From Serinicoccus marinus DSM 15273 (GTDB taxonomy: Bacteria > Actinomycetota > Actinomycetes > Actinomycetales > Dermatophilaceae), in contig NZ_CP043808.1 in the NCBI RefSeq assembly GCF_008386315.1, forward strand, positions 868,001 to 932,000: a stretch of 64,000 bases of DNA, written 5' to 3'. The notes beneath the pieces were generated by a model. The model made no database searches. It was not told the DNA's origin and was given only the letters and a program-made list of their open reading frames with translations. Below are positions 306 through 63,816 of this stretch, piece after piece (the stretch's first letter is position 1; each line of letters opens with the position of its first letter). The translations under genes and the position numbers were made by a program.

Positions 306-1370
306 GTGCGCCGGATCCTGCGCGAGCTCGCGGTGCGGATCGTGCTCGTCGTCACCGGTGGTGCCCTCCTGCTCGCGATCTTCGTCGCCTGGCTGCTCCC
401 GCAGGTGCGGGAGAGCGCCTGGCCAGGCGGGGCGGGGGCGGTGCCGGGGTGGGTGCTGCCGCTCATCATGGTGCTGTGCGGGATGCTCGTGCTGGCGGCC
501 GGGGTCCCGACCGCCCGCTCGCTCGCCGACCGCGCGGCCGAGACCACCGCCGGGCCGCTGCGTCAGCTCGCCCACCGCACCGACGAGCTGGCCTCGGGTG
601 GATTCGCCCTGGACCCGGAGGCGCGTCCGGGGCGGCTGGTCGAGCCTGAGCCCTTCCGGTCCGGGATCGCCGAGATCGACGCGGTCGCCCGCGTCGTGGA
701 CCGGCACCACAGCACCTTCGCCAGGGCCCTCGTCTTCGAGCGATCCTTCGCCGCCGACGCCTCGCACCAGCTCCGCACCCCCTTGGCCGCGCTGCTGCTG
801 CGGCTGGAGGAGATCGCCCAGTCCGACGACGCGGCGGTGGCCCGCTCCGAGGCGGAGATCGCCATCGGCCAGGTGGAGCGGCTGACCGGCGTCGTGGACG
901 ACCTGCTGCAGCGGACCCGCGCCGGTCATGCCAGCGGCGGTGCGGTCACGGCGGCCGACGCCGTCGTGGCGGGGCTCGACGAGGAGTGGACCCCCGCCTT
1001 CGAGGAGCGCGGCCGGGTGGTCGAGCTGACCTGCGAGCGCGGGGTGATCGTCGAGGCGAGCGCCTCGGTCCTGTCCCAGGTCCTCAACACCCTCGTGGAG
1101 AACGCCCTCGTCCACGGGCGCGGGGACGTGCGGGTCCACGTCTACCGCTCCGGCCCCTCGGCCATCTTCACCGTGTCCGACCAGGGGCCGGGCATACCCC
1201 GTGACCTGGCGCGCACCATCTTCGACCGCGGCATCACCACCGGCGCGGGGACCGGCCTCGGACTGGCCGTCGCCCGGGAGACCGCCGAGTCGATCGGGGG
1301 GCGGGTGGAGCTGGTCCACACCTTCCCGCCGGTCTTCGCCTGCTACCTGCCCCTGGCGACGACGCCCTGA
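306..1370 (+). CDS. Sensor histidine kinase
   Basis: 354-residue membrane kinase that should phosphorylate the response regulator encoded just upstream. Two membrane segments (about residues 10-32 and 48-68) flank a very short outside loop, so it probably senses the membrane or a partner protein. A HAMP-like linker follows, then the H-box DASHQLRTPL with phospho-acceptor His near residue 154, an N-box with NTLVENALVHG and the ATP-lid DQGPGIP / GTGLGLAVA. The GTG start at 306 is the first in frame after the regulator stop. The last 28 bases overlap the convergent gtrA-like gene. The Ile in GPGIP uses the rare ATA codon inside a GGCATACC octamer. Confidence 0.93.
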   Translation: MRRILRELAVRIVLVVTGGALLLAIFVAWLLPQVRESAWPGGAGAVPGWVLPLIMVLCGMLVLAAGVPTARSLADRAAETTAGPLRQLAHRTDELASGGFALDPEARPGRLVEPEPFRSGIAEIDAVARVVDRHHSTFARALVFERSFAADASHQLRTPLAALLLRLEEIAQSDDAAVARSEAEIAIGQVERLTGVVDDLLQRTRAGHASGGAVTAADAVVAGLDEEWTPAFEERGRVVELTCERGVIVEASASVLSQVLNTLVENALVHGRGDVRVHVYRSGPSAIFTVSDQGPGIPRDLARTIFDRGITTGAGTGLGLAVARETAESIGGRVELVHTFPPVFACYLPLATTP

Positions 1371-1861
1371 CCCTTGCCCTCCAGGTCCAGCTCGCCACGG
1401 AAGACGAAGGTGCGGTAGGCCCAGAACCGGAACAGCGTGCCGAGCACGAGCCCCACGCCGTTGCCCGACACGTTGTCGGCCAGCTGGCTGTCCAGCCCGA
1501 GGATGTAGCGGGAGAACCCCAGGCACGCCAGCGCGATGAGCAGCCCGAGCGCGTTGAAGACCACGAAGAGCGCGAACTCGTGGGCCACCGGCTCGCTGCG
1601 GCGGTGCCGGAAGGTCCACAGCCGGTTGCCGACCCAGGAGAAGACCGTCGCCACGCTCGTCGCGACCACCTTGCCCCACAGCGGCGACCCCGCCATCGGG
1701 CCCTCCGCGACCCCGGGCACCCCGAAGATGAGGACGTTGTAGAGCGCCGTGTCCAGGACGAAGGCGAGCGCGCCCACCGTCCCGAACTTGGCCAGCTCGG
1801 CGACCAGGACGCGGTAGGCCGCGCGGGCGCGGGCGAGCAGCCCGGGGGTAGAGGGGGTCAC
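1343..1861 (-). CDS. GtrA family membrane protein
   Basis: 172 residues with four predicted membrane helices: an N-terminal soluble stretch, then FGTVGALAFVLDTALYNVL, a second helix around KVVATSVATVFSWVGNRLW with the family's N-R-x-W-T-F signature, and two more helices towards the C-terminus. GtrA-like proteins are thought to move lipid-linked sugars across the membrane; members near purE/purK are common in actinobacteria (Rv3277 position in M. tuberculosis). The GTG at 1861 is chosen because a TACACT box lies 8 nt upstream and homology begins about 17 residues later; a longer frame to 1993 runs into purK. The gene is divergent from purK and overlaps the kinase gene at its 3' end. Confidence 0.85.
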   Translation of the reverse strand: MTPSTPGLLARARAAYRVLVAELAKFGTVGALAFVLDTALYNVLIFGVPGVAEGPMAGSPLWGKVVATSVATVFSWVGNRLWTFRHRRSEPVAHEFALFVVFNALGLLIALACLGFSRYILGLDSQLADNVSGNGVGLVLGTLFRFWAYRTFVFRGELDLEGKGQGVVARGR

Positions 1862-1869
1862 GGGGCCGC

Positions 1870-1896
1870 AGTGTAGGCGCGCTCGCTGGATAGGGT
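1870..1896. promoter_or_regulatory. Divergent gtrA-like / purK promoter region
   Basis: Two outward -10-like hexamers sit in the 41-bp gap. TACACT on the minus strand (1875-1870) lies 8 nt before the gtrA-like GTG, and TAGGGT on the plus strand (1891-1896) lies 6 nt before the purK GTG. Both spacings suggest leaderless mRNAs. No clear -35 boxes are seen. Inferred from sequence only. Confidence 0.5.
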
Positions 1897-1902
1897 GGTC
1901 GC

Positions 1903-3126
1903 GTGACGTCACCCAGCCCCGTCCGCGCCGAGGGCGGCTTCCCCGTGGTGGGCATCGTCGGCGGTGGCCAGCTCGCCCGGATGTGCCAGCCACCGGCGGT
2001 CGCCCTGTCTCTCACCCTCTCCGTCCTCGCCGAGTCGCCGACGGCCAGCGCCGCGCTGGTCGTGCCGCACAGCCCGGTCGGGGAGCACACCGACCTCGCG
2101 GCGGTGCGGGAGTTCGCGCGCGGCTGCGACGTCGTGACCTTCGACCACGAGCACGTCCCGCAGGAGGTGCTGCTCGCGCTGCAGGAGGAGGGGGTGGAGC
2201 TGCACCCGAGTCCCCAGGCGCTGGTCTTCGCGCAGGACAAGCTGGCCATGCGGCGGCGACTCACCGAGCTCGGACTCCCCTGCCCCCGGTGGGCGCAGGC
2301 ACGCACCGGCGCCGACGTGGAGGACTTCGCCGCGCAGGTCGGCTGGCCGCTGGTCGCCAAGGCCCCGCGCGGCGGCTACGACGGCAAGGGGGTGCTGGTC
2401 TGCCGGTCGCTCGCCGACGTGCAGCCGTGGCTCGGCGAGGTGGGCACCGGCGGTCTCGCCGACGGCATCCTGCTGGAGGAGGCCGTGGACTTCTCCCGCG
2501 AGCTCTCGGTCATGGTCGGTCGCAGCCCCTCCGGGCAGGCGGCGACCTGGCCGGTCGTGGAGACCGTGCAGGAGGGCGGCATCAACACCGAGGTGCTCGC
2601 CCCGGCGCCCGGCCTCGACGACGAGCTCGCCGTGGCCCTCGCCGAGGGGGCGCTGCGCATCGCCGGTGAGCTCGGGGTGACCGGCGTCATGGCCGTCGAG
2701 GTCTTCGAGGTGACCGGGCGGTGGCCGGACGGGTCGGCCTACCCCACCTACCTGGTCAACGAGCTGGCGATGCGCCCGCACAACAGCGGGCACTGGAGCA
2801 TCGACGGCGCGGTGACCAGCCAGTTCGAGCAGCACCTGCGGGCGGTGCTGGACCTGCCGCTCGGCGACCCCTCGGCCCGGGCCCCGTGGACCGCCTCCGC
2901 CAACGTGCTGGGCGGCGACTATCCCGAGCTGTACGCCACCTACAAGCACCTCATGGCGCGCGACCCGGGCCTGAAGATCCACCTCTACGGCAAGGGGGTG
3001 CGACCCGGGCGCAAGCTCGGGCACGTCACGGTCTGCGGCGGCGACGGGAGCGCGTCCTCGCTGGCGGAGCTGCGCGGGCGGAGCACCCATGCCGCCGACT
3101 ACCTGCGAGGAGTGGTGACCGAGTGA
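1903..3126 (+). CDS. purK: 5-(carboxyamino)imidazole ribonucleotide synthase
   Basis: 407-residue ATP-grasp enzyme that makes N5-CAIR from AIR, bicarbonate and ATP in purine synthesis; PurE then converts N5-CAIR to CAIR. Visible family features are [12 protein letters not shown] at residues 16-27, the substrate-side FDHEHVP, the ATP-grasp stretch [17 protein letters not shown] and the late [13 protein letters not shown] metal/ATP site. Length is typical. The GTG start follows a TAGGGT box by 6 nt. The stop overlaps the purE start by 4 bp (GTGA), so the two are translationally coupled. Confidence 0.97.
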
Positions 3127-6552: not shown

Positions 6553-6590
6553 GGTCGCCTCCGATCAGCGCAAGGGTAGCCCGAGGCCGC

Positions 6591-7829
6591 TCAGGGGTCG
6601 ACGGTGATGCTCTGATCCTGGCGCAGGGCGGTGAAGAGCTGCGCGGCGCCCTGCTCGTCCCAGAGGACGGCGCTGCCCACCTCGGTCTGGTAGTTGGGGT
6701 CGGCGACCGGGACGGTCACCGAGTTGCCCTCGCCGGCCGCGACCTGGCGCATCGCCGCAGCCATCCGGCCCGCCTCGAGCATCGAGGTGTCGTCGCCGAG
6801 GCTCAGGGCGGACCCGGTGGCGGTGCCCACCTCGTGCAGCCGCCACGGGACGAGCACGGTGCTCGGCGTGATCATCTTGTCCACGAGGGCGGAGAGGAAC
6901 TCGCGCTGCCGCTCGACCCGGCCGATGTCGCCGCGCGGGTCGCTGTAGCGCATCCGGACGTAGCCCAGCGCCTGCTCACCGGCCAGCTCCTGGCACCCGG
7001 CGGGGAGGTCGATGTGCGCCTTCTCGTCCGCGACCGGCTCGTCGAGGCACATCTCGACCCCGCCGACGCCGTCGACGACGCTGACGAAGCCGCCGAAGCC
7101 GATCTCCATGTAGCCGTCGACCGGCAGCCCGGTGCTGCGCTCGACGGTGTCGACGAGCTGCTCGGGCCCGCCGTTCGAGTGCGCGGCGTTGAGCTTGTTC
7201 CAGCCGCTGTCCCGGATCTCGACGTAGCTGTCGCGGGGCAGGCTCACCAGGGTCGGCTCCCCGAGGGCCGGCACGTGCAGCAGCATCACCGTGTCGGCCC
7301 GGTGGCCCTCGGTGAAGCCGGTGCCGAACTCGCCCCGCTGCTCCTCGGTCAGCTGCTCCCGGCTGTCGGTGCCCACCAGCAGGTAGTTGGCGCCTTCTGC
7401 GGCGGCCGGACGGTCGGAGACGTCGGGGGTGGCGTCGATCCGGTTGACGCTGCCCCACACCGTCGCGACCACGACCGCCATGACGACGACGTAGGCGACG
7501 ACGGCGAGCACGAGCAGCGCCATGGCGCGCCGGAACCCGTAGCGGGGCCTACGGCGGCGCGGCGGGCGTCCGGCCGGGCGGCGGGGAGCGGCATACCGGT
7601 CGTCGCCACGGTCCCAGCCCCGGTCGTCGTCGCGGTCCCAGCCCCGGTCGTCGTGCCGGGCCTCGCCGCGGTCCCACCCGTCCTCGGCGTAGCGGTCGTC
7701 GTGGTCCCGGGGCTCGCGTGGCGCTGAGGCCCGCGGGATGCGCTCCGTCGGATCGGGGTCGCGGCGCTGCCCGCTGCGCGGCGTCCGCGGCATCGGACGG
7801 GTCCAGTCGTCCTCGGGGTGGTGGGGCAC
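6591..7829 (-). CDS. LytR-CpsA-Psr (LCP) family glycopolymer transferase
   Basis: 412 residues (420 if the GTG at 7853 is used). LCP enzymes attach teichoic acid-like or arabinogalactan-type polymers from a lipid carrier to peptidoglycan outside the membrane. A charged Arg/Asp-rich cytoplasmic tail of about 110 residues contains repeats of DDRGWDRGDDR type, followed by one membrane helix (MALLVLAVVAYVVVMAVVVA) and the LCP core: NYLLVGTDSREQ, RADTVMLLHV, VSLPRDSYVEI and KLNAAHSNGGPEQLV carry the conserved Asp/Arg residues that bind pyrophosphate. The GTG at 7829 is preferred because TAGTCT sits 8 nt before it. A downstream ATG at 7793 is also possible. Confidence 0.9.
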   Translation of the reverse strand: MPHHPEDDWTRPMPRTPRSGQRRDPDPTERIPRASAPREPRDHDDRYAEDGWDRGEARHDDRGWDRDDDRGWDRGDDRYAAPRRPAGRPPRRRRPRYGFRRAMALLVLAVVAYVVVMAVVVATVWGSVNRIDATPDVSDRPAAAEGANYLLVGTDSREQLTEEQRGEFGTGFTEGHRADTVMLLHVPALGEPTLVSLPRDSYVEIRDSGWNKLNAAHSNGGPEQLVDTVERSTGLPVDGYMEIGFGGFVSVVDGVGGVEMCLDEPVADEKAHIDLPAGCQELAGEQALGYVRMRYSDPRGDIGRVERQREFLSALVDKMITPSTVLVPWRLHEVGTATGSALSLGDDTSMLEAGRMAAAMRQVAAGEGNSVTVPVADPNYQTEVGSAVLWDEQGAAQLFTALRQDQSITVDP

Positions 7830-7903
7830 GAGAGGCAAGACTACGGGGTCCACCTTGCCGCGCCTTGGGAGCGGCGCGCCACGAGCCGTGCCCTCCTGCG
7901 GGG

Positions 7904-7909
7904 TAGCCT
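7904..7909 (+). promoter_or_regulatory. -10-like box of glycosyltransferase gene
   Basis: TAGCCT, 6 nt before the GTG at 7916; the layout implies a leaderless transcript. It stands back to back with the LCP gene's own TAGTCT (7843-7838, minus). Confidence 0.45.
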
Positions 7910-7915
7910 CGCCGC

Positions 7916-8899
7916 GTGAGCTCTGCCGACTCCCGTGACCAGCGGCACCACCCGCCCGTCTCGGTCATCATGACCGTCCTCGACGAGGAGACCCACCTGC
8001 CCGAGGCCGTGCGCTCGGTGCTGTCCCAGGACTACCCGGGGGAGATGGAGGTCGTCGTCGCGGTCGGGCCCAGCCGTGACCGGACCCGGGAGGTCGCCGA
8101 CGCCCTCGCCGCGGCCGACCCGCGCGTGGTCGTCGTCGACAACCCCTCCGGGCGCACCCCGGACGGGCTCAACGCGGCCGTGGCGACGTCGCGGCACGAC
8201 GTCGTCGTGCGCATGGACGGCCACGGGGAGCTGAGCGAGGGCTACGTGCGGCGCGCGGTCGCGCTGCTGGAGCGGACCGGCGCCGCCAACGTCGGCGGCA
8301 TCATGCTCGCCCAGGGTTCCGGGCCGGTGCAGGAGGCCGTGGCCCTCGCGATGCGCTCGCCGCTGGGCATGGGCAGCGAGCGCTTCCACACCGGGGGCGC
8401 GGAGGGCCCGGCCGACACGGTCTTCCTCGGCGTCTTCCGGCGGGAGTGGCTGGACCGGGTCGGGGGCTACGACCCGACCTACACCCGTGCCCAGGACTGG
8501 GAGCTCAACCACCGGATCCGGGCGGCCGGCGGCACCATCTGGTTCACCCCCGAGCTCACCGTGACCTACCGGCCCCGCTCCACCTTCCGCGACCTGGCCC
8601 GCCAGTTCTACACCAGCGGCCAGTGGCGCCGGCAGGTCGTGCGCCAGCACCCCGACTCGGTCAACGCCCGCTACCTCGCGCCGCCGGTCGCGCTCTGCGC
8701 GGTGGCCGCAGGGGCCGTCGGAGGTGTCGTCTGGCGCCCGCTGTGGCTGCTGCCGATGGGGTATGCCGCGGCCGTCACCGTCGGGGGAGCCTGGGTCGCC
8801 CGGGGCAAGGAGCCCGGCGTGGTGGCGCGCATGCCCGGGGTGCTCGCGACCATGCACCTCACCTGGGGAGCCGGCTTCCTGCGCGGCCCCCGCCGCTGA
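7916..8899 (+). CDS. Glycosyltransferase family 2 protein
   Basis: 327 residues. The N-terminal GT-A domain starts with VSVIMTVLDEETHLPEAV and reads VVVAVGPSRDRT, then VVRMDGHGEL as the probable metal/nucleotide-sugar site and a GYDPTYTRAQDWELNHR acceptor/catalytic region (ED-type motif). Two C-terminal membrane helices (about 245-300) anchor it at the inner face of the membrane. Domain order resembles ExoA-like exopolysaccharide transferases. With the divergent LCP gene it suggests synthesis or attachment of a cell-wall polymer; the sugar is unknown. Confidence 0.9.
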   Translation: MSSADSRDQRHHPPVSVIMTVLDEETHLPEAVRSVLSQDYPGEMEVVVAVGPSRDRTREVADALAAADPRVVVVDNPSGRTPDGLNAAVATSRHDVVVRMDGHGELSEGYVRRAVALLERTGAANVGGIMLAQGSGPVQEAVALAMRSPLGMGSERFHTGGAEGPADTVFLGVFRREWLDRVGGYDPTYTRAQDWELNHRIRAAGGTIWFTPELTVTYRPRSTFRDLARQFYTSGQWRRQVVRQHPDSVNARYLAPPVALCAVAAGAVGGVVWRPLWLLPMGYAAAVTVGGAWVARGKEPGVVARMPGVLATMHLTWGAGFLRGPRR

Positions 8900-9607: not shown

Positions 9608-10393
9608 TCAGTCGTCCTTCCCGGGGCGCGGGCGGGTGGTGCGCTTCTCGATGTCCTTGTCGGCGGCCTGCTCGGCGGTCAGGGCGAGCACGCGCTGGAC
9701 GTAGATGCCGGGCAGGTGGACCTCGTCGGGGTCGATCTCACCCGGCTCGACCAGCTCCTCCACCTCGGCGACCGCGACCTGCGCGGACATGGCGCACAGC
9801 GGGTTGAAGTTGCGGGCCGACTGGTGGAAGACCAGGTTGCCGTGCCGGTCGCCCTTGGCCGCCCGCACCAGCGCGAAGTCGGCGAAGATCGCGTGCTCGA
9901 GCACGTAGTCGCGGGCGTGGTCGCGGACCGAGAACTCGCGGGTCTCCTTGGCGGGGGAGCGCAGGACCACCTCACCGTCGCTGTCGTAGCGCCAGGGCAT
10001 ACCCCCCTCGGAGACCTGCGACCCGACGCCGGTGGGCGTGAAGAAGGCCGGTATGCCCGCGCCCCCGGCGCGCAGCTTCTCGGCGAGCGTGCCCTGCGGG
10101 GTCAGCTCGACCTCGAGCTCGCCGGAGAGGTACTGCCGCGCGAACTCCTTGTTCTCCCCGACGTAGGAGGCGATGACGCGACGGATCCTGCCCTGCGCGA
10201 GGAGCAGCCCCAGCCCGGCCCCGTCGACGCCGCAGTTGTTGGAGACGACCTCCAGGTCGCTCGTGCCCTGCTCCAGGGCCTGGTGGATCAGCACGGTGGG
10301 GATGCCCGAGAGCCCGAAGCCGCCCACGGCGACGGTCATCCCGTCAATGAGCCCCTCGAGCGCATCCTGGGCGGAGGCGACGACCTTGTCCAT
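9608..10393 (-). CDS. scoA: 3-oxoacid CoA-transferase, subunit A
   Basis: 261 residues. The glycine-rich CoA-binding motif [14 protein letters not shown] (about 18-31) and the stretch [14 protein letters not shown] are typical of alpha subunits; FFTPTGVGS and [20 protein letters not shown] follow. The ATG at 10393 is fixed by the MDKVV start and a TAGCCT box 7 nt upstream. The box overlaps the stop codon of the upstream TIGR03089 gene. It forms an operon with scoB. Confidence 0.92.
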
Positions 10394-11189: not shown

Positions 11190-12125
11190 GTGAGCACCGC
11201 CCGGCACCGTGTCTGGCGTCCGGCGCGCCCGCTGGACGTCGCCGCGACCTGGGGCACGTTGCGGCGCGGTGCCGGGGACCCGTGCTGGCGCGTGGTCGAC
11301 GGCGAGCTGTGGCGCGGGGTGCGGGCGCCGACCGGCGCCGCGACCCTGCGGCTGGCTCGCCGGGCCCCCGACTCCCCGGTCGCGGCGCAGGCCTGGGGGC
11401 CGGGAGCGGAGTGGCTGCTGGACGGGTTGCCGGGGATGCTCGGCGAGGGGGACGACGACGAGGGGTTCGTGCCGGTGCACGCGCCGGTGGCCCACGCCCT
11501 CCGCCGGCATCCGGGGTGGCGGACGCCCCGGACCGGGTTGGTCCTGGAGTGCCTCGTCCCGGCCGTGGTCGAGCAGAAGGTCACCGGCCAGGAGGCCTTC
11601 TCCGGGTGGCGGCGGGTGGTCCAGCGCTTCGGGGACGTCGCGCCGGGCCCCGGGGCCGCGCTGCGCCTGCGGGTGCCGCCCTCGGTGCCGACGCTGTCGG
11701 GCATACCGTCCTGGGAGTGGTTGCGCGCCGGGGTCAGCCCGCAGCGCGCGGACACCGTCGCCCGGGTCGTGCAGGTGGCGGCACGGTTGGAGGAGTGCGT
11801 CGGGATGAGCTCCTCCCGGGCGCGGGCCCGGCTGACCGCCGTCCCGGGGGTCGGGGTCTGGACGGCCGCCGAGACCGCGCAGCGCGCCCTCGGGGACGCC
11901 GACGCGGTCTCCTTCGGCGACTACCACGTCGCGGCCAACATCGGGTATGCCCTCACCGGCGAGACGGTCGACGACCACGGCCTGGTCGAGCTGCTCGCCC
12001 CGTATGCCGGTCACCGCTACCGGGTGCAGCGGCTGCTGGAGCTCTCGGGTGCCGGCCGTCCACGGCGGGGGCCGCGGATGGCGCCGCGGGGGCACCTGCC
12101 GGTCAGTCGGTCCCGGGGCCGCTGA
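11190..12125 (+). CDS. DNA-3-methyladenine glycosylase II family (AlkA/HhH-GPD)
   Basis: 311 residues. AlkA-like enzymes remove alkylated bases from DNA. The C-terminal half carries the helix-hairpin-helix [20 protein letters not shown] followed by the Gly-Pro-Asp-type loop [13 protein letters not shown], whose Asp would activate the glycosidic bond. [21 protein letters not shown] is the typical preceding helix pair. The N-terminal third is poorly conserved. The GTG at 11190 (preceded by CAGGCT, 8-nt gap) fits better than an upstream frame start inside the divergent gene. The Ile of LSGIPS uses ATA in a GGCATACC octamer. Confidence 0.88.
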
Positions 12126-14744: not shown

Positions 14745-17700
14745 GTGCTCCTGCCGGTGGACCTCCCGGCGGGTGGTGGGGACGGCGAGGACGAGCTGGC
14801 CGGGTCGTTGCGCGCCGTCGCGGCCGGCCGCCGCCGACCGCAACGGGTGCTGCTGCTGCATCCCGACCCCGAGGGGGGACCGGTGGCCGCGCTCCAGGAC
14901 CTGGCCCGGGAGCTGGGTCTGCCGCTGAGCGTCCGCTCCCACCCGCAGCAGGACCGGGTGGCGGCCGTCCGCACCGCCCTGGACGTCCTACCGGACCAGC
15001 CGGGGCACTGGATCTGGTTCCTCACCGCCGACGCCCGGCCTGAGCCGGAGGCGCTGGCCGCCCTCACCGCCGCGGTCCGGCGCAGCAGCCGGGTCGGCGT
15101 CGTCGGCCCCAAGCTCGTGCGCGCCGACCAGCCGCGGCTGCTGCGCTCGCTCGGTCACCGCGTCACGCCGGCCGGCCGGGTCGTCGACCCCACCCGCGCC
15201 GCCCTCGTCGACCAGGGCCAGCTGGACCTGCGTCAGGACGTCCTCGGAGTTCCGCTGAGCGGGGCCCTCGTCCAGGCCCGGGTGCTGCAGGAGGTCGGCG
15301 GGATCGACCCGGCCTTCGCGCAGGACGGTGTCGACGGGCTCGACCTGGGCTGGCGGGCCCACCTCGCCGGTCACCGGACGGTCGTCGCGCCCGAGGCCGT
15401 CGTCCGGCAGGGCGAGGCAGGGCTGGGCGTCGTCGACCCGTTGGTGACCCGCGCCAGGGTGCGCCAGGTGGCCCTGGCCCGTGGCTCGTTCTGGGCGGCC
15501 CCCTGGCGCGCGCTGGGCGTCCTCGTCACCAGCCTGGCCGCCGCGCTGCTCCTGCTCCTCGTCAAGCGCCCCGCCGAGGCCGCCGGGGAGTGGGCGGATG
15601 TCCGGGCGGTGCTGCGACCGGGGCGCGGGTGGTCCGCGCGGCGGCGGTTCCGCCGCCGCCGACGGGTGGCGCCCCGCGACCTCGCGGGTCTGCACGAGCC
15701 CCGTGCGACGGGCTGGCGCGCGACCGTGGACACGGTGGGCGAGGCCCTCGACCCGCGCTACCGACGCGGCTCGGGCGCGCCACTGCCGCGGACCGAGGCG
15801 TTGCGTACCGGTCCGGTCTCCGACGACTTCGACGACGCGGTCGGCGAGGGCCGTCGGTCGGGGAGGTGGAGCTGGCCGCTGGCGCTCGCCCTCCTGATCG
15901 TGGCGGCAGTCACCGCCTGGATGGGGCGAGGTGCTCTCTCGCCGGCCGGTCTCGACCTCGCGGGCGTCGGCCTGTCCGGGGGACAGCTGGGGGTCGCCGC
16001 CACGGACGCCGTCGGACTGTGGTCCGCCGCGGTGGACGGCTGGCGGGGCGCCGGTCTCGGTCACGGCGACCCCGCCCCGGCGTGGCTGCCGCAGGCGACG
16101 GTCCTGTCCTGGCTCCTCGGCCTCCTGCCCGGTGCGGGGCCGACCACGGCCGGGCCCGCCCTGGCCTGGCTGCTCGCCGCCGCGCCGGTGCTGAGCGTCC
16201 TCACGGCATACCTCGCGCTGCGTCGGAGCACCCGGCGCGGCTGGGTCCGGGCGGTGCTCGCGCTGGGCTGGGCCCTGGCGCCGGCGCTCGTCGTCGCGAC
16301 GTCCCAGGGGAGGGTGGGACCGGCCGTGGTGCACGTCCTCGCGCCGCTGCTCGTGGCCGGCATCCTCGTCGTCAGCGACCGGTCCCGCGGGGTCCGCAGG
16401 GCCGCGGCGGCCTTCGGCACCGCCCTCGGCCTCGCGATCGCCGCGCAGTGGGTGCCGCTCGTGCTCGTGCTGGGGACCGTGGCCGGGCTGCTGGTCCTCG
16501 GCGTGGGCCGGGGGAGCGCCCGGTGGCGCGGCGCGGTCGTCGCGGTCCTGCCGTGGGTGCTGCTGCTGCCCTGGTGGCCGAGCCTGCTGGCCGGGCCGGT
16601 CCAGCTCCTGGGGGGAGCCGGCGCGACCTCCGCCACCCCCCGGCTGCCCGCGACGCCCGACGCCTGGCAGCTGCTCCTGCTCCACCCTGCCGGCGTCGAC
16701 CCCTCCGGGCTCGACGGCCTCCTGCTGTGGCTGCAGGTGCCGCTCTGGCTGGCGGCGCTGGCCGCGCTGCTGCGGCCGGGCGACGGCGGCCGGCGGGCAG
16801 GCGTGCTCGTCGCCGTCGGCATCGTCGCCCTCGTCCTGGCGCAGGTCGCGGTGCGCACCTCGCTGGGCGTGCTCCCCGTCGGGCACTCCGAGGCCGGCTC
16901 GGTGGTCTCGGCCTGGCCGGGGACCCTGTTGTCCTTCGGTGGCGCCGCGCTGCTCCTCGCCGCCGCCTCGCTGGTCGAGGACCTCCTGGCGACCCGCCGG
17001 GGGAGGGTCCTGCGGGTGCCGGCCCGGGCGCTGGCCTCGACGGGCGCGGTGGTCGTGCTCGCCGCCACCGTGGTCGCCGCGGGATGGACCGTCCTGAGCA
17101 GCCGGGTCACCCCCGGGCTCACGGTCGCCACCGAGCCGCTCCCGCCGGTCGCCGCCGAGCAGGCCCGAGGACCAGAGGCGTTGCGCACGCTGCTGCTCAC
17201 CCCGGAGCAGGACGGCCTGCTCGTCGACCTGCGGGGCAGCGAGCCGGAGGCCACCCGCATCCTGCGCGACCGGACCGCCGACCTCGCGCGGGGCGTCGCC
17301 GGCCCGGGGCAGGTCGAGCAGGCGGTCCGGGCCCTCGTCGGGGGTGCCTCGTCGGACCAGGCACGCCAGGAGCTGCTCGGCCTCGGCGTGGGCTACGTCG
17401 AGCTCGAGGCGTCCGACACCCATCCCGCGGCCGACGACCTGGACCGGGTCGCCGGTCTGGCGCGGGTCTCCAGCCCCGAGGGCAGCGTCCTGTGGCGGAT
17501 GGTCGAGGGCGACCCGGGACGCACGCGCGTGGTCGAGGCCGACGGCGCGACCGTCGAGGTGCTGCCCAGCACCGGTCCGCACGGGCAGGCCGCGGGCCGC
17601 GTCGACGTGCCGTCGGGAGGCTCGCTGCTCGTCGCCGAGGCGGCCGGCTGGGCCGAGGTCGCGCAGCTCACCGTCGACGGCGACGAGCTGGACCTCGAGG

Positions 17701-19558: not shown

Positions 19559-19945
19559 TCACACCAGGTCCTCGGGGTCGCGCCCCAGCATCCGGGCGAC
19601 CTGCTCGACGACCACCTCGGTGACGAGGGCGCCCAGCTCGACCTCGTCCGCGGCCCGGTGCAGCACCGGGCGGCGGTAGACCACCAGCCGCGCCGGCATA
19701 CCCCCCTGCGCCGGGAACAACCGGCCGAGCGCGACGTCGTGCTCCCAGGGCGCGGGGTCGGAGGGCGGCACCTCCTCCACCGCGAGCTCCAGGCCCAGCG
19801 GGCTGCCCCAGCGCTGCTCGACCGTCTCGGCGGCATCGAGCACCAGCTCGTCGAACCGGTCGCGCCGGCTGCTCATGGCCGGCACCCGAGGCCAGGCGAG
19901 AGGTCCGCGGACCCCCCGTCCGCGGCGGTCCCGGTGCGTGGCCAT
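19559..19945 (-). CDS. Metallopeptidase-family (zincin-like, Rv3259-type) protein with altered active site
   Basis: 128 residues with the family layout: RGPLAWPRVPAMSSRRDRFDELVLDAAE, VEEVPPSDPAPWEHDVALG and PARLVVYRRPVLHRA. The expected zinc motif HExxH maps onto VVVEQVARML, which lacks both His residues, so metallopeptidase activity is doubtful. The ATG at 19945 follows TATCGT (minus) by 6 nt. It is divergent from the DUF3499 gene and convergent with DUF5719, the neighbourhood known from mycobacteria (Rv3259-Rv3258c). Confidence 0.85.
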   Translation of the reverse strand: MATHRDRRGRGVRGPLAWPRVPAMSSRRDRFDELVLDAAETVEQRWGSPLGLELAVEEVPPSDPAPWEHDVALGRLFPAQGGMPARLVVYRRPVLHRAADEVELGALVTEVVVEQVARMLGRDPEDLV

Positions 19946-20416: not shown

Positions 20417-21841
20417 GTGGTGGAGGTCGCCGCGGTCGTCAAGGCCTACGACGTGCGTGGGCTGGTCCCCGAGCAGCTCGACGCAGGGACGGCACGAGCG
20501 CTGGGCTCCGCCTTCGCACAGGTGGTGGTCCGTCCCGAGGGGCACGCCGGGATCGTGCTCGGCCGCGACATGCGCGCGTCCTCCCCGGAGCTCGCCGACG
20601 CCTTCGCCGGCGGGGTCCTCGAGCAGGGCGTGGACGTGACGGACATCGGGCTCTGCTCCACCGACGGTCTCTACCACGCCAGCGGCACCTGCGACCTGCC
20701 GGGGGCGATGGTCACGGCGAGCCACAACCCTGCCGGCTACAACGGGATGAAGCTCTGCCGGGCGGCCGCCGCGCCCGTCGGGCAGGACTCCGGGCTGGCC
20801 GAGATCCGGGACCTCGCGCAGTGGCTGCTGGACCGCGGCGACCTGCACCAGCTCCCGGCCCCGGCCTCGGCGGGGCGGCGGCGGGAGGTGGACCTGCTCG
20901 CGGACTACGCCGCCCATCTGCACTCGCTGGTCGACCTGGGCGGGATCCGTCCGCTGCACGTCGTCGTGGACGCCGGCAACGGGATGGCGGGGCATACCGT
21001 GCCCGCGGTCCTGGGCGCCGAGGGGTCGCCGCTGCGGCTCGACCCGCTCCACTTCGAGCTGGACGGCTCCTTCCCGCACCACGACGCGAACCCGCTCGAC
21101 CCGGCCAACCAGCGGGAGCTGCAGGAGGCGGTGCGCGCCCGTGGCGCGGGCCTGGGCCTGGCCTTCGACGGCGACGCGGACCGGGTCTTCGTCGTCGACG
21201 AGCGGGGCCGGCAGGTGCCGGCCGGGGCGGTGACCGCGCTCCTCGCGCGGTGGCTGGTCGCGCGGGAGGTGGTGGCCGGGCGTGACCCGGCCGACGTCAC
21301 GGTCGTGCACGGGTCGATCCTGCCGCGGGCCGTGGAGGAGGGCGTCGCGGCGAGCGGCGCACGGCTGGTGACCTGCCGCGTCGGCCACACCTTCGTCAAG
21401 GCCGCGATGGCCACGCAGGCCGCCGTCTTCGGGGCGGAGCACTCTGGGCACTACTACTTCCGCGACTTCTGGTCCGCCGACAGCGGCCTGCTCGCGGTGC
21501 TCCACCTGCTCGCCGCCGTGAGCGAGCAGCAGCGCCCGGTCTCGGCGATCCTCGGGGAGCTCGACCCCTACGCCGCGTCCGGGGAGATCAGCCTCCGGGT
21601 CCCGGACCCGGCCGCCGCGGCCGAGCGGGTGCGACGGTGGGCGCTCGACCGGGGGGCGAGGGTCGACGACACCGATGGCCTGCTCGTCCGGCAGGACGAG
21701 GGCAGCGGGGCCTTCTGGTGGGTCTCGCTGCGGTCCAGCAACACCGAGCCGGTGATGCGGCTCACCGTCGAGGCGCGCGACGGTGCAAGGATGGGGCAGG
21801 TCCGGGACGCCGTCCTGGCCGTGGTGGAGCAGGAGGACTGA
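20417..21841 (+). CDS. Phosphomannomutase/phosphoglucomutase
   Basis: 474-residue alpha-D-phosphohexomutase that interconverts mannose 6- and 1-phosphate (or the glucose pair) for GDP-mannose and envelope glycans. The phosphoserine loop is MVTASHNPAGYNGMKL (about residues 97-112), the Mg site is LAFDGDADRVFVVDE, the sugar-specificity loop is FGAEHSGHYYF and the phosphate-binding loop is RSSNTEPVMRLTVEA. Matches the PmmA (Rv3257c) position in M. tuberculosis. Starts 19 nt after DUF3499. Confidence 0.94.
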   Translation: MVEVAAVVKAYDVRGLVPEQLDAGTARALGSAFAQVVVRPEGHAGIVLGRDMRASSPELADAFAGGVLEQGVDVTDIGLCSTDGLYHASGTCDLPGAMVTASHNPAGYNGMKLCRAAAAPVGQDSGLAEIRDLAQWLLDRGDLHQLPAPASAGRRREVDLLADYAAHLHSLVDLGGIRPLHVVVDAGNGMAGHTVPAVLGAEGSPLRLDPLHFELDGSFPHHDANPLDPANQRELQEAVRARGAGLGLAFDGDADRVFVVDERGRQVPAGAVTALLARWLVAREVVAGRDPADVTVVHGSILPRAVEEGVAASGARLVTCRVGHTFVKAAMATQAAVFGAEHSGHYYFRDFWSADSGLLAVLHLLAAVSEQQRPVSAILGELDPYAASGEISLRVPDPAAAAERVRRWALDRGARVDDTDGLLVRQDEGSGAFWWVSLRSSNTEPVMRLTVEARDGARMGQVRDAVLAVVEQED

Positions 21842-21845: not shown

Positions 21846-22067
21846 ATGGCACGACCGGAGTTCGACCCGTGGGTGCGCAGCATCCTGCGATGCCCCGTGG
21901 GGCGCCACGAGCTGGTTGACGTGACCGACGAGCAGGGGGAGCCGGCGCTGCAGTGCGCCGAGGACTGCGAGGGTCCCGGGCGCCGGCGGCGGTACCCGTG
22001 GCGGGAGGGCATACCGGTGCTGCTCGCCGATGACGCGGTGGTCGTCACGGTCGCCGACGGATCTTGA
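21846..22067 (+). CDS. Trm112-family small zinc protein
   Basis: 73 residues. ILRCPVGRHELVDV and LQCAEDCEGPG supply Cys for a zinc-ribbon-like fold, and YPWREGIPVLLADDA is the Trm112 C-terminal signature. In other organisms Trm112 activates methyltransferases; in actinobacteria this gene sits between the mutase and the SIS isomerase with no known partner. GIP uses ATA in a GGCATACC octamer. Its stop overlaps upstream bases of the next gene. Confidence 0.85.
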   Translation: MARPEFDPWVRSILRCPVGRHELVDVTDEQGEPALQCAEDCEGPGRRRRYPWREGIPVLLADDAVVVTVADGS

Positions 22068-22078
22068 GGAGACCAGGT

Positions 22079-32916: not shown

Positions 32917-32962
32917 CCTGTGGACGGGCGTCACCGGCCCTCTGTGCGTGCCAGGCTCGGGT

Positions 32963-37679: not shown

Positions 37680-40390
<2,711 letters not shown>

Positions 40391-43475: not shown

Positions 43476-44929
43476 GCCGCCCGCTCGTCACCGCGGTGGC
43501 GCCCCGGTGGGAGAGCCAGGTCGCGACCCTCCTCGACGGATCGGGCCAGGCGCATCTGGTGCGTCGGTGCGCGGATCTCGCCGAGCTGCTCGGCGTGTGC
43601 CGTGCCGGGCTCGCGCAGGTGGCGCTGGTCTCCTGGGACGTGCGCGGGCTGGACCGGGAGATGGTGCACGCGCTCGTCGACGCCGGTGCGCAGGTCGTGG
43701 GGCTCCACCCGCAGGGCGACGACGAGGCGGCCCGGGTGCTGCTCCGCTGGGGAGCGCACGCGGCGCTGGCCATGGACGGCTCGACGTCCGACCTGGACGC
43801 CTCGCTCGCCGGGCTCGACGACGGTGGGGCCGCTGACAGGGTGGACGGCCTCGCGCCGGGGCAGGGGGTCGAGGAGAGCTCCCTGGAGGTCAGCCGCGCC
43901 GCCCAGCAGCACGCTGCCGACGCCCGGGCCGGGGGGCGGCCCACGGGTGGGCGGCTCGGCCGGTGGCGCGGCCGCTCCCGGGCAGGGTCGACACCGGTCA
44001 CGGAGGCCGACGAGCACGACCTCGACGAGACGGCGGCGACGTCGCCGGACGAGCCTGACGCCCTCCACGACGACGAGCGCGAGGGGGAGGTGGTCGTCGT
44101 CTGGGGCCCGCACGGCAGCACCGGTCGGACCACGGTCGCGGTCAACCTCGCCGCCGAGCTCGCCGACCCCGTGCGCCCGGTCGTGCTCGTCGACGCCGAC
44201 ACCTACGGCGCCACGGTGGCGCAGGCGCTCGCGGTGCTGGACGAGTCGCCCGGGGTCGTCGCCGCCGCCACCCGGGCCGCGGACCAGGGGTCGCTGGACG
44301 AGACGGCCCTGCTCCGACTGGCCCCGCAGGTCCGTCCCGGGCTGCGGCTCCTCACCGGGTTGCCCCGGGCGGACCGCTGGACCGAGCTGCGGGAGGCGGC
44401 CCTGTCCGAGGTGCTGCAGCAGGCCCGGTCCGTCGCACGCTGGGTGGTGGTGGACGTGGCACCGACGGTCGAGCAGGACGAGGAGCTCTCCTTCGACACC
44501 GGAGCGCCCCGGCGCAACGGGGCAGCCCTGTGCGCGCTGCAGGAGGCCGACCGGGTCGTCGTGGTGGGCACCGGCGACCCGGTGGGCCTGCAGCGGCTCG
44601 TGCGGGCCCTGGACCAGCTGCCGACGCTGACGACGGCGCGGCACCAGGTCGTCGTGACCCGAGTACGGTCCGGACCGGTCGGGCCGGAGCCCGGGCGACG
44701 GATCACCGAGACGCTGCGCCGCTTCGCGCGGACCGACGAGGTGCGCCTCGTCCCCGAGGACCGGGAGACGCTGGACGCCGCGCTGCTGCACGGGCATACC
44801 CTCGCCGAGACGCGGCCGGGCAGTCCGGCCCGCACCTCGATCCAGCAGCTGGCCCGGGACCTGGACGGAGCCGGGAGCGCCCCGCCCCGTCGCTCTCGCT
44901 GGGCCGGGCTGCTGGGCGTCGGACGCTGA
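43472..44929 (+). CDS. CpaE-like ParA/MinD-family ATPase
   Basis: 485 residues. The N-terminal 120 residues resemble a degenerate receiver-like domain (LVTAVAPRWESQVATLLDG, then LVSWDVRGLDREMVHALVD) as in CpaE, followed by a charged linker of about 75 residues. The ATPase domain begins VVVVWGPHGSTGRTTVAVNL, a deviant Walker A, then VVLVDADTYGATVAQALAVL and WVVVDVAPTVE. CpaE positions pilus machines at the cell pole. Here it pairs only with the SAF protein, so its client is unknown. Confidence 0.87.
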   Translation: MSRPLVTAVAPRWESQVATLLDGSGQAHLVRRCADLAELLGVCRAGLAQVALVSWDVRGLDREMVHALVDAGAQVVGLHPQGDDEAARVLLRWGAHAALAMDGSTSDLDASLAGLDDGGAADRVDGLAPGQGVEESSLEVSRAAQQHAADARAGGRPTGGRLGRWRGRSRAGSTPVTEADEHDLDETAATSPDEPDALHDDEREGEVVVVWGPHGSTGRTTVAVNLAAELADPVRPVVLVDADTYGATVAQALAVLDESPGVVAAATRAADQGSLDETALLRLAPQVRPGLRLLTGLPRADRWTELREAALSEVLQQARSVARWVVVDVAPTVEQDEELSFDTGAPRRNGAALCALQEADRVVVVGTGDPVGLQRLVRALDQLPTLTTARHQVVVTRVRSGPVGPEPGRRITETLRRFARTDEVRLVPEDRETLDAALLHGHTLAETRPGSPARTSIQQLARDLDGAGSAPPRRSRWAGLLGVGR

Positions 44930-47178: not shown

Positions 47179-47679
47179 TCAGTCGCGGGTCAGCCACTCG
47201 CGGGCGACGCCCTCCTCGAGCTGCACGAACTCCTTGACCCGTGCCGCCACCTCGCGCTCGATGCGGTGGCCGAGGAAGGGGATGCGGGCCTCGAGGTCGC
47301 CGTCCACGACGTGGTCGGTCGTGCCCTCCCCGGCGCGCCGCAGGTGGATGCCGCCGGTGAACGACACCGGCAGGCCCGGCAGCTCCAGGCTCATGGCCCC
47401 CTCCCGCTCGCCGTCCGCGTCCGGGGAGCCCCACCGCACCGTCTCGACGACGAGCAGCTGCGGACCCACGAGGGTCTTGGCGATGTCCGGTATGCCGTCG
47501 TTCGGGAGGTGCCGACGCGTGGTCACCGTGGTGCTGCCGTCCGCCGCGGGCTCGATCTGGATGGTCTGGTCCAGCGCTCCCGACCGCTCGCAGCGCAGCA
47601 CCTGGTAGCCGTGGTCGGTCAGCATCTCGAAGGTGCGCTGCGGGTCCGCGGGGTGCGAGATCGTCTCGGTGATCCTCAT
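47179..47679 (-). CDS. DUF2505 family protein (START/SRPBCC-like fold)
   Basis: 166 residues, MRITETISHPADPQRTFEML at the start and HVVDGDLEARIPFLGHRIER near the end, which match the DUF2505 actinobacterial family and suggest a lipid-binding helix-grip fold. No ligand known. TACCGT (minus, 47691-47686) lies 6 nt before the ATG, a leaderless layout. DGIPDI uses ATA within the window's octamer motif. Confidence 0.88.
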   Translation of the reverse strand: MRITETISHPADPQRTFEMLTDHGYQVLRCERSGALDQTIQIEPAADGSTTVTTRRHLPNDGIPDIAKTLVGPQLLVVETVRWGSPDADGEREGAMSLELPGLPVSFTGGIHLRRAGEGTTDHVVDGDLEARIPFLGHRIEREVAARVKEFVQLEEGVAREWLTRD

Positions 47680-56517: not shown

Positions 56518-57315
56518 TCAGTGGCCCGGCGTCACCAGGTCGGGGCGGCGCTCGGCGCGCACGCAGTCGGGGCAGAGCCCATGGCCCGGCAGCCGGTCGA
56601 ACAGGCAGCAGCCGCGGCGCAGGAAGGCCTCCTCGGGCTGCTGCATGGCCCCGCCGGTGCCCTCGGGCAGCCCGGCCCGCTCGACCACGCGTCCCCCGGG
56701 CGCGAGCCCGGGGTGTCCCAACAGCGCCCGCGCCAGCGCCCAGGCGGAGGTGGCGGCAGCCGGTCGCAGGGCGCTGAGCACCCGGGCCGCCCCGACCAGG
56801 CTCGACGCCGAGTTGGACCGCAGCACCTGCGCCGACACCGGCCCCACCCGGGCGCAGCCGGCGTCGAGCGCGGCCAGGCCGTCCTCCAGCACGACCTCGC
56901 CCACGACGCGCGTCGCCTCGTCGGTGCCGCGGACGGCATACCCCCGGTCCGGGTCCCGCAGCCCGAGCGGGACGGGTCCGCGGTGCCCGGGGCTCGCCAC
57001 GAGGTTCTCGGCGGCAAGGTCGGGGACCCAGTCGTGCAGCACGGCGCCGGCCATCGTCACCGACCACAGTCGGGAGGCGAGGCCGACCTGCAGCGCCGAC
57101 ATCGCGACCTTGGGATCGACGTCCTCCAGAGGTATGCCGCTGGAGGCGGCGATCGCCGCCCGCACGTCCGCGGCGCGCGCCGCCAGCCGCTCGTGGCTGA
57201 GCACCTCCACCCAGGGCAGGGCGTCCCCGTGCTCCCCGGCCGGGTCGGCGAGGGCGAAGAAGCCGCCGAGGTCCTGCAGGCTCGGCAGCAGCCCGGCCGG
57301 GGCCGTCGCGGGCAT
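56518..57315 (-). CDS. FhuF-like (2Fe-2S) ferric-siderophore reductase family protein
   Basis: 265 residues. The C-terminal RRGCCLFDRLPGHGLCPDCV fits the FhuF Cys-Cys-x(n)-Cys-x2-Cys cluster site. The middle SRLWSVTMAGAVLHDWVPDL and FGLRDPDRG-like segments match the family's helical body. FhuF releases iron from ferri-siderophores in the cytoplasm, but no siderophore transport genes lie nearby, so the role is open. It starts 10 nt after the PPDK stop and probably shares its transcript. SGIPLEDV uses ATA in an octamer. Confidence 0.78.
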   Translation of the reverse strand: MPATAPAGLLPSLQDLGGFFALADPAGEHGDALPWVEVLSHERLAARAADVRAAIAASSGIPLEDVDPKVAMSALQVGLASRLWSVTMAGAVLHDWVPDLAAENLVASPGHRGPVPLGLRDPDRGYAVRGTDEATRVVGEVVLEDGLAALDAGCARVGPVSAQVLRSNSASSLVGAARVLSALRPAAATSAWALARALLGHPGLAPGGRVVERAGLPEGTGGAMQQPEEAFLRRGCCLFDRLPGHGLCPDCVRAERRPDLVTPGH

Positions 57316-60933: not shown

Positions 60934-60955
60934 GGCCCGAGGGTATGCCGTCGGC

Positions 60956-61614: not shown

Positions 61615-61663
61615 AGCCTAGCGGGGGAGGTGCCGCCACATCACCGTCCCACGCTGCCAGACT
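61615..61663. promoter_or_regulatory. Divergent DUF4282 / miaA promoter region
   Basis: Minus-strand TAGGCT (61620-61615) is 6 nt before the DUF4282 ATG. Plus-strand CAGACT (61658-61663) is 7 nt before the miaA ATG; it keeps the A2 and T6 positions of the window's -10 pattern. Confidence 0.35.
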
Positions 61664-61670
61664 TGCGGGT

Positions 61671-62606
61671 ATGCCGGACCAGCCCGCCGACCGGGACCCC
61701 GACGCGCCGCCCGTGGTGGCGGTGGTGGGTCCGACGGCGACCGGGAAGTCGGACCTGGGGGTGCGGCTGGCGCTCGCGCTGGACGGCGAGGTCGTCTCGG
61801 CCGACGCCTCGCAGCTCTACCGGGAGATGGACCTCGGCACCGCCAAGCTCACGCTGCCCGAGCGGCAGGGGGTGCCGCACCACCAGCTCGACGTGCTCGA
61901 CGCGCGCGAGGAGGCGAGCGTGGCGGCATACCAGCAGGCGGCCCGCGCCGACCTGGCCGCGATCCGGGCGCGCGGGCGGGTGCCCGTGGTCGTCGGCGGG
62001 TCCGGGCTCTACGTGCGGGCGCTGCTGGACCGGCTCGAGATCCCCCCGACCGATCCGCGCGTCCGGGCGGCCTGGGAGGGCGAGCTGGAGGCGAGGGGCG
62101 CCGAGGCGCTGCACGCGCTGCTGGCCGGGCGCGACCCGGCGGCGGCCGCACGGATCGAGCCGCGCAACGGCCGGCGGGTGGTGCGGGCGCTGGAGGTGAT
62201 CGAGCTCACCGGGCGACCGTTCAGCGCCACCCTGCCGACGCGCGAGCTGGTCGAGCCGACGGTGATTCTCGGGCTGCGGGCGGACCGGGACGTCCTGGAC
62301 GCGAGGATCGCGCGCCGCGCGGCGCGGATGTGGGAGGACGGGCTGCTCAAGGAGGTGCGCGGTCTCGAGCGGGAGGGGCTGCGGGAGGGGCGGACCGCCT
62401 CGCGGGCGGTGGGGTATGCCCAGGCGCTGCGCCAGCTCGACGGCGAGCTCGGAGAGGCCGAGGCGGTCGAGGACACCGCGGCCGCGACCCGCCGGCTGGC
62501 CCGCCGGCAGCAGTCGTGGTTCGGCCCCGACCCGAGGGTGACGTGGCTCGAGCACGACGCGCCGGACCTGCTCGACCGGGCGCTCGCGGTGGTCGCCGCC
62601 GGGTGA
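61671..62606 (+). CDS. miaA: tRNA dimethylallyltransferase
   Basis: 311 residues. It adds a dimethylallyl group to N6 of A37 in tRNAs that read U-starting codons. P-loop VVGPTATGKSDLGVRLALAL, then VSADASQLYREMDLGTAK, HHQLDVLD and VVGGSGLYVRALLDRLE; ASRAVGYAQAL is the late conserved site. The ATG is part of a GGTATGCC octamer. The usual actinobacterial neighbour dapF is not between it and hflX. Confidence 0.95.
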   Translation: MPDQPADRDPDAPPVVAVVGPTATGKSDLGVRLALALDGEVVSADASQLYREMDLGTAKLTLPERQGVPHHQLDVLDAREEASVAAYQQAARADLAAIRARGRVPVVVGGSGLYVRALLDRLEIPPTDPRVRAAWEGELEARGAEALHALLAGRDPAAAARIEPRNGRRVVRALEVIELTGRPFSATLPTRELVEPTVILGLRADRDVLDARIARRAARMWEDGLLKEVRGLEREGLREGRTASRAVGYAQALRQLDGELGEAEAVEDTAAATRRLARRQQSWFGPDPRVTWLEHDAPDLLDRALAVVAAG

Positions 62607-62615
62607 GACGGCGGG

Positions 62616-63239: not shown

Positions 63240-63268
63240 CGCCGCCAGTCTCCCACCTCGCCCCACGG

Positions 63269-63325
63269 GTCGTCCCCACCCCTGCGGGTCGCCCCCACCC
63301 CCGCGGGGCGCCACCACCCCCGCGG
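63269..63325. repeat. Three imperfect 19-bp tandem repeats
   Basis: Units at 63269-63287 (GTCGTCCCCACCCCTGCGG), 63288-63306 (GTCGCCCCCACCCCCGCGG) and 63307-63325 (GGCGCCACCACCCCCGCGG). They abut without gaps and differ at two to four positions. Located between the methyltransferase start and the next gene; C-rich strand. Confidence 0.8.
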
Positions 63326-63390
63326 ATCCTCGCTCGGCCCCCGCCTACGACGGCGGGGATCGCGACGAAGCGTGGGGCCGCCCACGAAGA

Positions 63391-63747
63391 GTGTGGCTGG
63401 TGACCTCAGCGACGACCCGCATAACCAGACTGCTGCCCGGCTCGGGGATGGCGACGCTCGTCGTGCACACCGTCAGCCTGCGGACCCGGTTCGTGTCCGT
63501 CGACCTGGAGCTTATGGACCGGGCTCCGGCCACGGTGCAGGAGGCACGGGCGATCGCCTCGCGCCACCTCAGCGGTGACGCCCTGGAGGCCAATCTGCAG
63601 TTCGCCGAGGACCATCTCGGGGAGGAGGAACGCTTCACCTTCACGCCGACGCGCTACCGCTTCGCGGACCTGAGGATGCGAGCACCGCGGGTTCGCGGGC
63701 AACAAATCTCTGGCTCCTGGCGTTGCACCAGTGAGAGGCTGCGGTGA
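63391..63747 (+). CDS. Hypothetical protein, possibly truncated
   Basis: 118 residues from GTG 63391, or 99 from ATG 63448. The upstream part has atypical codons (ATA, AGA), so the ATG is the better start. The core from SVDLELMDRAPATVQEARAI to FTFTPTRYRFADLRMRAP uses GC-rich third positions as neighbours do and looks structured. The last 15 or so codons (RVRGQQISGSWRCTSER) have A/T-rich usage, as if the original end was replaced. No family recognised. Confidence 0.4.
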   Translation: MWLVTSATTRITRLLPGSGMATLVVHTVSLRTRFVSVDLELMDRAPATVQEARAIASRHLSGDALEANLQFAEDHLGEEERFTFTPTRYRFADLRMRAPRVRGQQISGSWRCTSERLR

Positions 63748-63816
63748 GACCACCCAGCCGGGACGACGTGAGCCGGGGCGCGGGCATACCTGCGAGCACC
63801 GGACCAGAAGGAGATC

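Follow-up and report, generated by a model that had tools for sequence, protein, structure and literature searches.

What would cause a single asymmetric octamer to be repeated in both orientations, and in every reading frame, over a whole bacterial chromosome? This question is raised by a stretch of 64,000 nucleotides from Serinicoccus marinus DSM 15273 (hereafter the window), positions 868,001-932,000 of a chromosome that forms one contig of 3,420,275 bp, in which the octamer GGTATGCC or, in the other orientation, GGCATACC recurs throughout. An earlier note, made from the sequence alone, had described it as an iterated motif that takes precedence over codon bias and cannot be accounted for by protein sequence alone, and this description is supported here. 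Our answer, offered tentatively and short of even confidence, is that the octamer may act as a Chi-like regulator of double-strand-break processing and homologous recombination by AdnAB, the actinobacterial helicase-nuclease. Genomes, loci, families and genera are designated below by G, L, f and g numbers.

Abundance and form of the octamer

The octamer occurs 29 times in the window, 13 times as GGTATGCC and 16 times as GGCATACC, in agreement with the earlier tally by hand, and the core hexamer likewise reaches the claimed number of about 41 (TATGCC 21, GGCATA 20). About two octamers had been claimed as the chance expectation, for which an order-3 Markov model gives 1.8; under this model the octamer has the top z among all 8-mers of the window. 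Matches to GGYATRCC number 31 in the window, a value reached in none of 100 dinucleotide shuffles, the maximum of which was 7. Over the whole chromosome there are 887 + 896 = 1,783 copies, against 7 + 4 = 11 for the reversed octamer. A 464-kb sample of the genome contains 243 copies where 14.1 are expected at order 3, a 17-fold enrichment. In 524 kb, 264 copies are present, and with the motif's own copies masked Markov models of orders 1-6 predict 5-36, the enrichment being about 45-fold. Unmasked expectations at orders 5 and 6 (225 and 244) lie near the 243 observed in the 464-kb sample, which we attribute to the contribution that the motif itself makes to the 6-mer and 7-mer counts. Once its copies are masked, the count no longer resembles a Markov expectation, the resemblance that the earlier note had named as evidence against its view. 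Base or codon composition, or chance, might be proposed instead, given that some octamers of the same letters in another order have high raw counts: GTCGTCGA occurs 34 times in the window, more than the 29 of the motif, and TCGTCGAG 254 times in 524 kb, near its 264. Neither is among the top order-3 deviants despite these raw counts, which we take to be codon-driven. Such an origin is refuted by the genome-wide and Markov counts, and the family-specific pattern and conserved sites described below also oppose it, so that its probability is negligible. Outside the motif, the highest word listed for the window is TAGGCCTC/GAGGCCTA, with 9 occurrences against 0.5 expected.

In its full form, the motif has C, G or T after GGTATGCC, with 93, 129 and 36 cases seen against 3.9, 7.0 and 1.9 expected; a following A is rare (6 seen, 2.2 expected). 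Weaker forms of the type HGTATGCC are also over-represented, namely TGTATGCC (39 against 5.2), AGTATGCC (23 against 5.9) and CGTATGCC (46 against 14.3). The palindromic variant GGCATGCC falls below expectation (8 against 21.5), and a second one, GGTATACC, is found 18 times where 4.5 are expected. With the former depleted and the latter weak, the signal is asymmetric, and these counts rule out a palindrome of the type of highly iterated palindrome 1 (HIP1) as well as a palindrome decayed by C-to-T change.

Within genes, called by a simple model of our own, all six classes of frame and orientation occur (25, 62 and 9 on the coding strand; 27, 28 and 33 on the other), as expected from the earlier claim that the motif is read in several frames. 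Copies not wholly within called genes amount to 59 of 243, against 43 expected, and no polarity with respect to gene direction was detected (96 against 88). The effect on codons can be observed most clearly for isoleucine and tyrosine. The window holds five ATA codons, the number given earlier, four of which, and not all five as had been claimed, stand in GGC-ATA-CC; in a larger sample, 26 of 44 ATA codons lie inside the motif in this form. The claim that TAT mostly precedes GCC holds in the larger sample, with 133 of 211 TAT codons doing so against 121 of 1,778 TAC codons.

A region lacking the motif was also encountered. L016, a 20-kb stretch at 2,720,001-2,740,000 of the same chromosome (67.8% G+C), has 0 copies and holds an IS110-type transposase gene together with a repeated integrase-core gene. 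Judged from L016, acquired DNA may be without the motif.

Conserved sites and related words in other genomes

Stretches of up to 40 kb around a SecA anchor from ten congeners, two of them shortened by contig ends, were aligned to the window. Of 120 octamers orthologous to its motif sites, 64 are exact, compared with 72 of 285 controls (P = 9e-8), the controls being other octamers with the same strong/weak pattern and the ten species not being independent of one another. In the nearest species, 15 of 16 motif sites are exact against 14 of 37 controls; in G108, the motif fares hardly better than the controls (4 of 15 against 8 of 35). At position 36549, the exact word occurs in one species and seven other aligned genomes are 3 or 4 bases off, and at other sites relatives are one to five bases from the exact word. 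Sites are thus gained and lost with relatives several bases away, a pattern that we ascribe to selection or drive favouring the word and not to single-base mutation bias. As regards the anchor gene (window positions 37680-40241), most congeners match it only to residue ~823-829, and their frames have ~900 residues or more; the end of SecA in this genome thus differs from that of most congeners.

The motif is a feature of this actinobacterial family. In the genus itself, 30 of 31 genomes carry 285 to 2,180 copies, the remaining one (G114) having 38. Among the 186 genomes of the family, many genera are rich, for example those of G151 (2,228), G141 (2,106), G166 (2,034) and G049 (1,877), and others are low, with at most 40 copies in all 16 genomes of g27 and at most 30 in all 12 of g46. 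In the same order, 273 genomes sampled from 19 further families have at most 136 copies each, a few of them being several-fold above the reversed control (G195, 111 against 24; G247, 103 against 25).

Other iterated words were sought in 20-80 kb per genome, a scale at which weak motifs are missed; apart from counts, the comparisons across genomes concern stretches of sequence. Several motif-poor genomes possess a word of their own: GGATGCCG in G178 (81 seen, 8.3 expected), CGATGCGG in G083 (46, 9.7), CGAAGGGG in G052, G091 and G093 (29, 23 and 28 seen; 6.1, 3.5 and 3.9 expected), and words of the GTACGCC type in G014 and G002 (29 and 27 seen; 5.3 and 5.8 expected). GTATGCCG outnumbers GGTATGCC in six further genera that bear the motif, sampled through G164, G039, G136, G141, G005 and G169. 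No clear motif was found in the 20-80 kb of G084, G154, G068, G001, G020, G038, G096, G010 or G082. Outside the family, f19 has 839 to 4,831 copies of GGATGCCG in 21 of 22 genomes and 485 in the remaining one, with more than 1,800 in 14 and the maximum in a genome of 4.2 Mb; reversed controls range from 119 to 338. In some f19 genomes (G221, G276, G236, G386 and others), the density is about one per 0.8-0.9 kb. The lower f19 values stand little above background, given that GGATGCCG reaches 2 to 5 times the reversed control in many other families as well (G340, for instance, has 609 against 132). A locus of Microbacterium sp. ACRRU has 24 copies of it against 3.3 expected. These words are called dialects by their resemblance, and they may represent one common system, a view partly supported by the spacing rule shared between them (see below).

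Further words were seen in the same searches. TACGGGCA in L145 (Cellulomonas sp. SG140; 12 seen, 0.3 expected) and GCCGATGC in L158 (Demequina sp.; 31 seen, 6.4 expected) are perhaps further dialects. The palindromes AGTGCACT in L069-L070 (G183; 12 against 0.3) and TTCTAGAA in L134 (G247; 8 against 0.2) are over-represented as well, as is GCGATCGC, which we take to be the HIP1 word, in L126 (G198, f14; 30 against 7.1) and L067-L068 (G096; 24 against 9.1).

Spacing on the same strand

The spacing test was confined to this genome, a pool over g1, to which several species contribute orthologous pairs, being left aside. Copies in the same orientation strongly avoid each other below 500 bp, where 8 pairs were seen against 39.4 expected (P = 1e-9), whereas pairs in opposite orientation at this distance number 48 against the same expectation. 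Above 500 bp, both kinds of pair occur roughly as expected, and four ordinary octamers of the same genome display no such exclusion. The rule extends to other words. For GTATGCCG in other genera, 32 same-orientation pairs lie within 750 bp where 78 are expected, against 93 opposite pairs; for GGATGCC (G178, G205 and the Microbacterium locus L183), the figures within 200 bp are 7 against 25 expected, with 26 opposite. Weaker HGTATGCC forms near exact copies follow the same pattern within 250 bp (6 same, 22 opposite, 15 expected of each). Since the exclusion acts on the same strand and not across strands, the orientation of the motif matters, and whatever reads it should be orientation-dependent. 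An early rough reading of the close pairs as a special inverted element is superseded by this pair correlation; inverted pairs at 10-50 bp are absent from the own genus (0 seen, 4.6 expected).

Polarity along the chromosome was evaluated from sums made by hand over the sampled copies, with origin and terminus placed roughly by the GC skew of the samples. The leading strand carries 110 copies and the lagging strand 133 (P = 0.16), in line with the earlier claim of a non-polar motif. The orientation bias from origin to terminus that characterizes FtsK-orienting polar sequences (KOPS) is rejected on these counts.

Table 1. Copies of the octamer in the window, with neighbours and alignment in congeners
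Feature	Position	Strand	Basis
motif copy, GGCATACC on + strand	1191..1198	-	sequence count
motif copy	7590..7597	-	
motif copy, GGTATGCC on + strand	8760..8767	+	
motif copy; inverted neighbour at 54 bp	9996..10003	-	
motif copy	10050..10057	+	
motif copy; inverted neighbour at 244 bp	11700..11707	-	
motif copy	11944..11951	+	
motif copy	16205..16212	-	
motif copy; aligned in congeners	19695..19702	-	
motif copy; exact in no aligned congener	20991..20998	-	
motif copy; exact in G117, G124, G133 and G109 among 7 aligned congeners	22008..22015	-	
motif copy; inverted neighbour at 68 bp	22076..22083	+	
motif copy	23424..23431	-	
motif copy; 9 of 10 aligned congeners have it exactly	29019..29026	+	
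motif copy; 9 of 9 congeners with aligned octamer have it exactly	32960..32967	+	
motif copy	35221..35228	+	
motif copy	36696..36703	-	
motif copy; inverted neighbour at 199 bp	37070..37077	+	
motif copy; common to G117 only, other 6 of 7 aligned congeners differ at 3-4 positions	37269..37276	-	
motif copy	41049..41056	-	
motif copy	44793..44800	-	
motif copy	47489..47496	+	
motif copy; inverted neighbour at 196 bp	56935..56942	-	
motif copy	57131..57138	+	
motif copy	60942..60949	+	
motif copy; inverted neighbour at 257 bp	61668..61675	+	
motif copy	61925..61932	-	
motif copy	62413..62420	+	
motif copy	63783..63790	-	

What may read the motif

We infer that the motif is read by a directional enzyme, that this enzyme is AdnAB, and that the motif acts on it as Chi does. 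The signal would be read on one DNA strand by the enzyme as it moves along the chromosome. AdnAB would degrade a broken or incoming DNA end as far as a copy in the correct orientation, and would there be switched to the production of a recombinogenic tail. Copies would then be required every few kilobases on each strand separately; a nearby second copy in the same orientation would be redundant, and a copy on the opposite strand would serve ends arriving from the other side. Drift of specificity between lineages would have given rise to the dialects. Among the options of the earlier note, a recombination hotspot comes closest to this proposal without coinciding with it. To our knowledge, no Chi is known for AdnAB. 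Whether and how AdnAB responds to Chi was called unknown in 2016 (PMC4824097) and its response was still called unclear in 2026 (PMC13309787). A fuller statement, in which the motif would be the first sequence signal for the third class of bacterial machines that process breaks, AdnAB, and a lineage-dialect actinobacterial Chi (GGTATGCCB, GTATGCCG, GGATGCCG, CGATGCGG, CGAAGGGG, GTACGCCG) with a per-strand spacing rule and written into codon choice across families, is more doubtful.

The enzyme expected by this proposal appears to be present. All 46 genomes tested have PDDEXK_1 nucleases, and the own genome holds two adjacent genes with UvrD-helicase domains, one of which also has PDDEXK_1. They are named AdnA and AdnB here by their domain make-up, which matches the description of AdnAB in PMC13309787; the enzyme is stated to be exclusive to Actinobacteria in PMC6452273. 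The 19 loci examined, chosen by PDDEXK_1 matches, contain relatives of both genes, with G039 partial and G096 split. A directional response of this kind has a precedent in Caulobacter AddAB, for which a chi array is described as effective in one orientation only and without effect in reverse (PMC5443536).

Several observations weigh against the proposal. None of the NCBIfam models for AdnAB or its kin reached cut-off in the own genome, and AdnB (L219 ~5,230-8,510; ~2.374-2.378 Mb of the chromosome) has frame breaks in its last quarter relative to a congener's protein, which put its nuclease end out of frame, perhaps through assembly errors. The motif cannot be predicted from AdnAB-like genes, which occur also in G084, G154, G096 and G038, four genomes in which no iterated word was seen. 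For CGAAGGGG and CGATGCGG, with few sites, no clear same-strand exclusion was detected, which limits the generality of the rule, and opposite pairs are mildly reduced as well in G178, at ~0.7 over 100-1,000 bp. The enrichment of 17- to ~45-fold and counts of up to 4,831 are nearer to those of uptake sequences than to those of Chi, and the absence of leading-strand bias is unlike polarised Chi. Chi sites are polarised according to PMC8022716, in which some unpolarised candidates are listed too. A Chi for RecBCD was considered and rejected: RecC, the Chi reader of RecBCD, is present in 11 of 27 motif-rich and 16 of 26 motif-poor genomes and does not track the motif, the 53 genomes having been divided by us according to motif counts.

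The most substantial rival is a DNA uptake sequence (DUS), in which competent cells would prefer DNA bearing the motif and copies would spread by transformation (molecular drive), with dialects as in Neisseriaceae; we regard it as unlikely. Its strength lies in the dialects, abundance and lack of polarity, which it explains better than Chi does, the two orientations being equal on the chromosome (887 + 896). As reported in PMC3630211, DUS number from about 1,900 to nearly 6,000 in 2.2-2.4 Mb and form eight dialects, to which the within-family dialects and high counts found here bear a resemblance. ComEC is found in all genomes tested, 53 from the family and 25 from other families, and a ComEA-like gene adjoins comEC in the own genome; ComEC is equally present in motif-poor genomes, however, and its loss as the cause of motif loss is rejected since all genomes tested have it. 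The ComEC match of G114 is short and sits at a contig end. G068, a small genome with 6 motif copies, has two ComEC matches (C1 2175993 and 2204467, ~28 kb apart) that cover different parts of the profile, the smaller being weak, and its ComEC may be broken. For T2SSF, the pilus/secretion platform, no motif-rich f1 genome of the 38 tested has fewer than 3 matches, and all 10 tested f1 genomes with 0-2 (G001, G022, G023, G038, G069, G070, G095-G098; five genera) are motif-poor. Against this, 60 of 70 motif-poor or intermediate f1 genomes tested have 3 or more, and G341 combines 3,843 copies of GGATGCCG with only 2. None of the 53 family genomes tested gave a match to PilM, a component of type IV pili. 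In g27 and g36, inverted CGAAGGGG pairs form hairpins by eye, as described for DUS in terminators in PMC3630211, whereas the own genus lacks inverted pairs at 10-50 bp. All 10 opposite CGAAGGGG pairs closer than 60 bp in these two genera (L041, L063, L064, L065, L066, L228, L229) face in one order, most of them being hairpins by eye, and 5 further close pairs are same-oriented. The chief difficulty is the spacing. DUS and uptake signal sequences (USS) act in either orientation on duplex DNA, hence copies should be redundant whatever their orientation, and opposite copies without mutual exclusion contradict an orientation-blind uptake; directional uptake, with orientation setting the entering strand or side, would be needed. 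In the open-access literature, searched mostly as listings by title and start of abstract, no paper was found on the motif or on a Gram-positive uptake sequence, and the term "uptake sequence" was not met in the main text of two papers on Micrococcus luteus transformation. We know of no ComP-type receptor in these bacteria, where a receptor was not sought by sequence.

Two further explanations were weighed. Some other strand-autonomous landmark, such as a site every 1-2 kb per strand at which an enzyme of repair or replication is loaded or tells the strands apart, would suit the spacing rule and the lack of polarity to both genes and replication; no enzyme can be named as its candidate, and we consider it improbable. 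A HIP1-like site, a nucleoid-protein site or a methylation target serving chromosome organisation is quite improbable. It would be consistent with copies lying genome-wide, within and between genes, and missing from L016 with its insertion-sequence genes. The comparison with HIP1 made in the earlier note fails on form: the motif is no palindrome, and the exclusion on one strand but not across strands would be unexpected for a palindromic site, on which ground the HIP1-like form is rejected. Restriction targets, moreover, are usually avoided rather than iterated.

If the Chi-like reading is true, a repair signal has been written into codon choice across whole families. Exact octamers in several spellings are now on hand for testing the Chi response of AdnAB in vitro. 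If the motif is an uptake sequence instead, it is one in Gram-positive bacteria. Strand-specific exclusion offers a simple measure by which Chi-like and uptake-like motifs might be told apart in any genome.

Compared with known systems, the motif shares single features with several. It is an asymmetric octamer like KOPS and other polar segregation motifs, and differs from them in having no polarity between replichores. With HIP1 of cyanobacteria it has high iteration, octamer length and an influence on codon choice in common, but not the perfect palindromic form of HIP1, its own palindromic relatives being weak or depleted. As with DUS of Neisseriaceae and USS of Pasteurellaceae, it is present by thousands, with equal orientations, in all frames, with words varying between lineages and ComEC present; it is unlike them in its strand-specific exclusion, its monoderm hosts and the lack of PilM. 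It departs from Chi in having no leading-strand polarity, a much stronger enrichment and a distribution not followed by RecC. At the same time, it is short, asymmetric and over-represented like the Chi of Escherichia coli (GCTGGTGG, read by RecBCD) and that of Caulobacter AddAB, would share their orientation-dependent reading, as the spacing implies, is missing from one stretch bearing insertion sequences, and occurs where AdnAB, an enzyme of the Chi-type class, is present.

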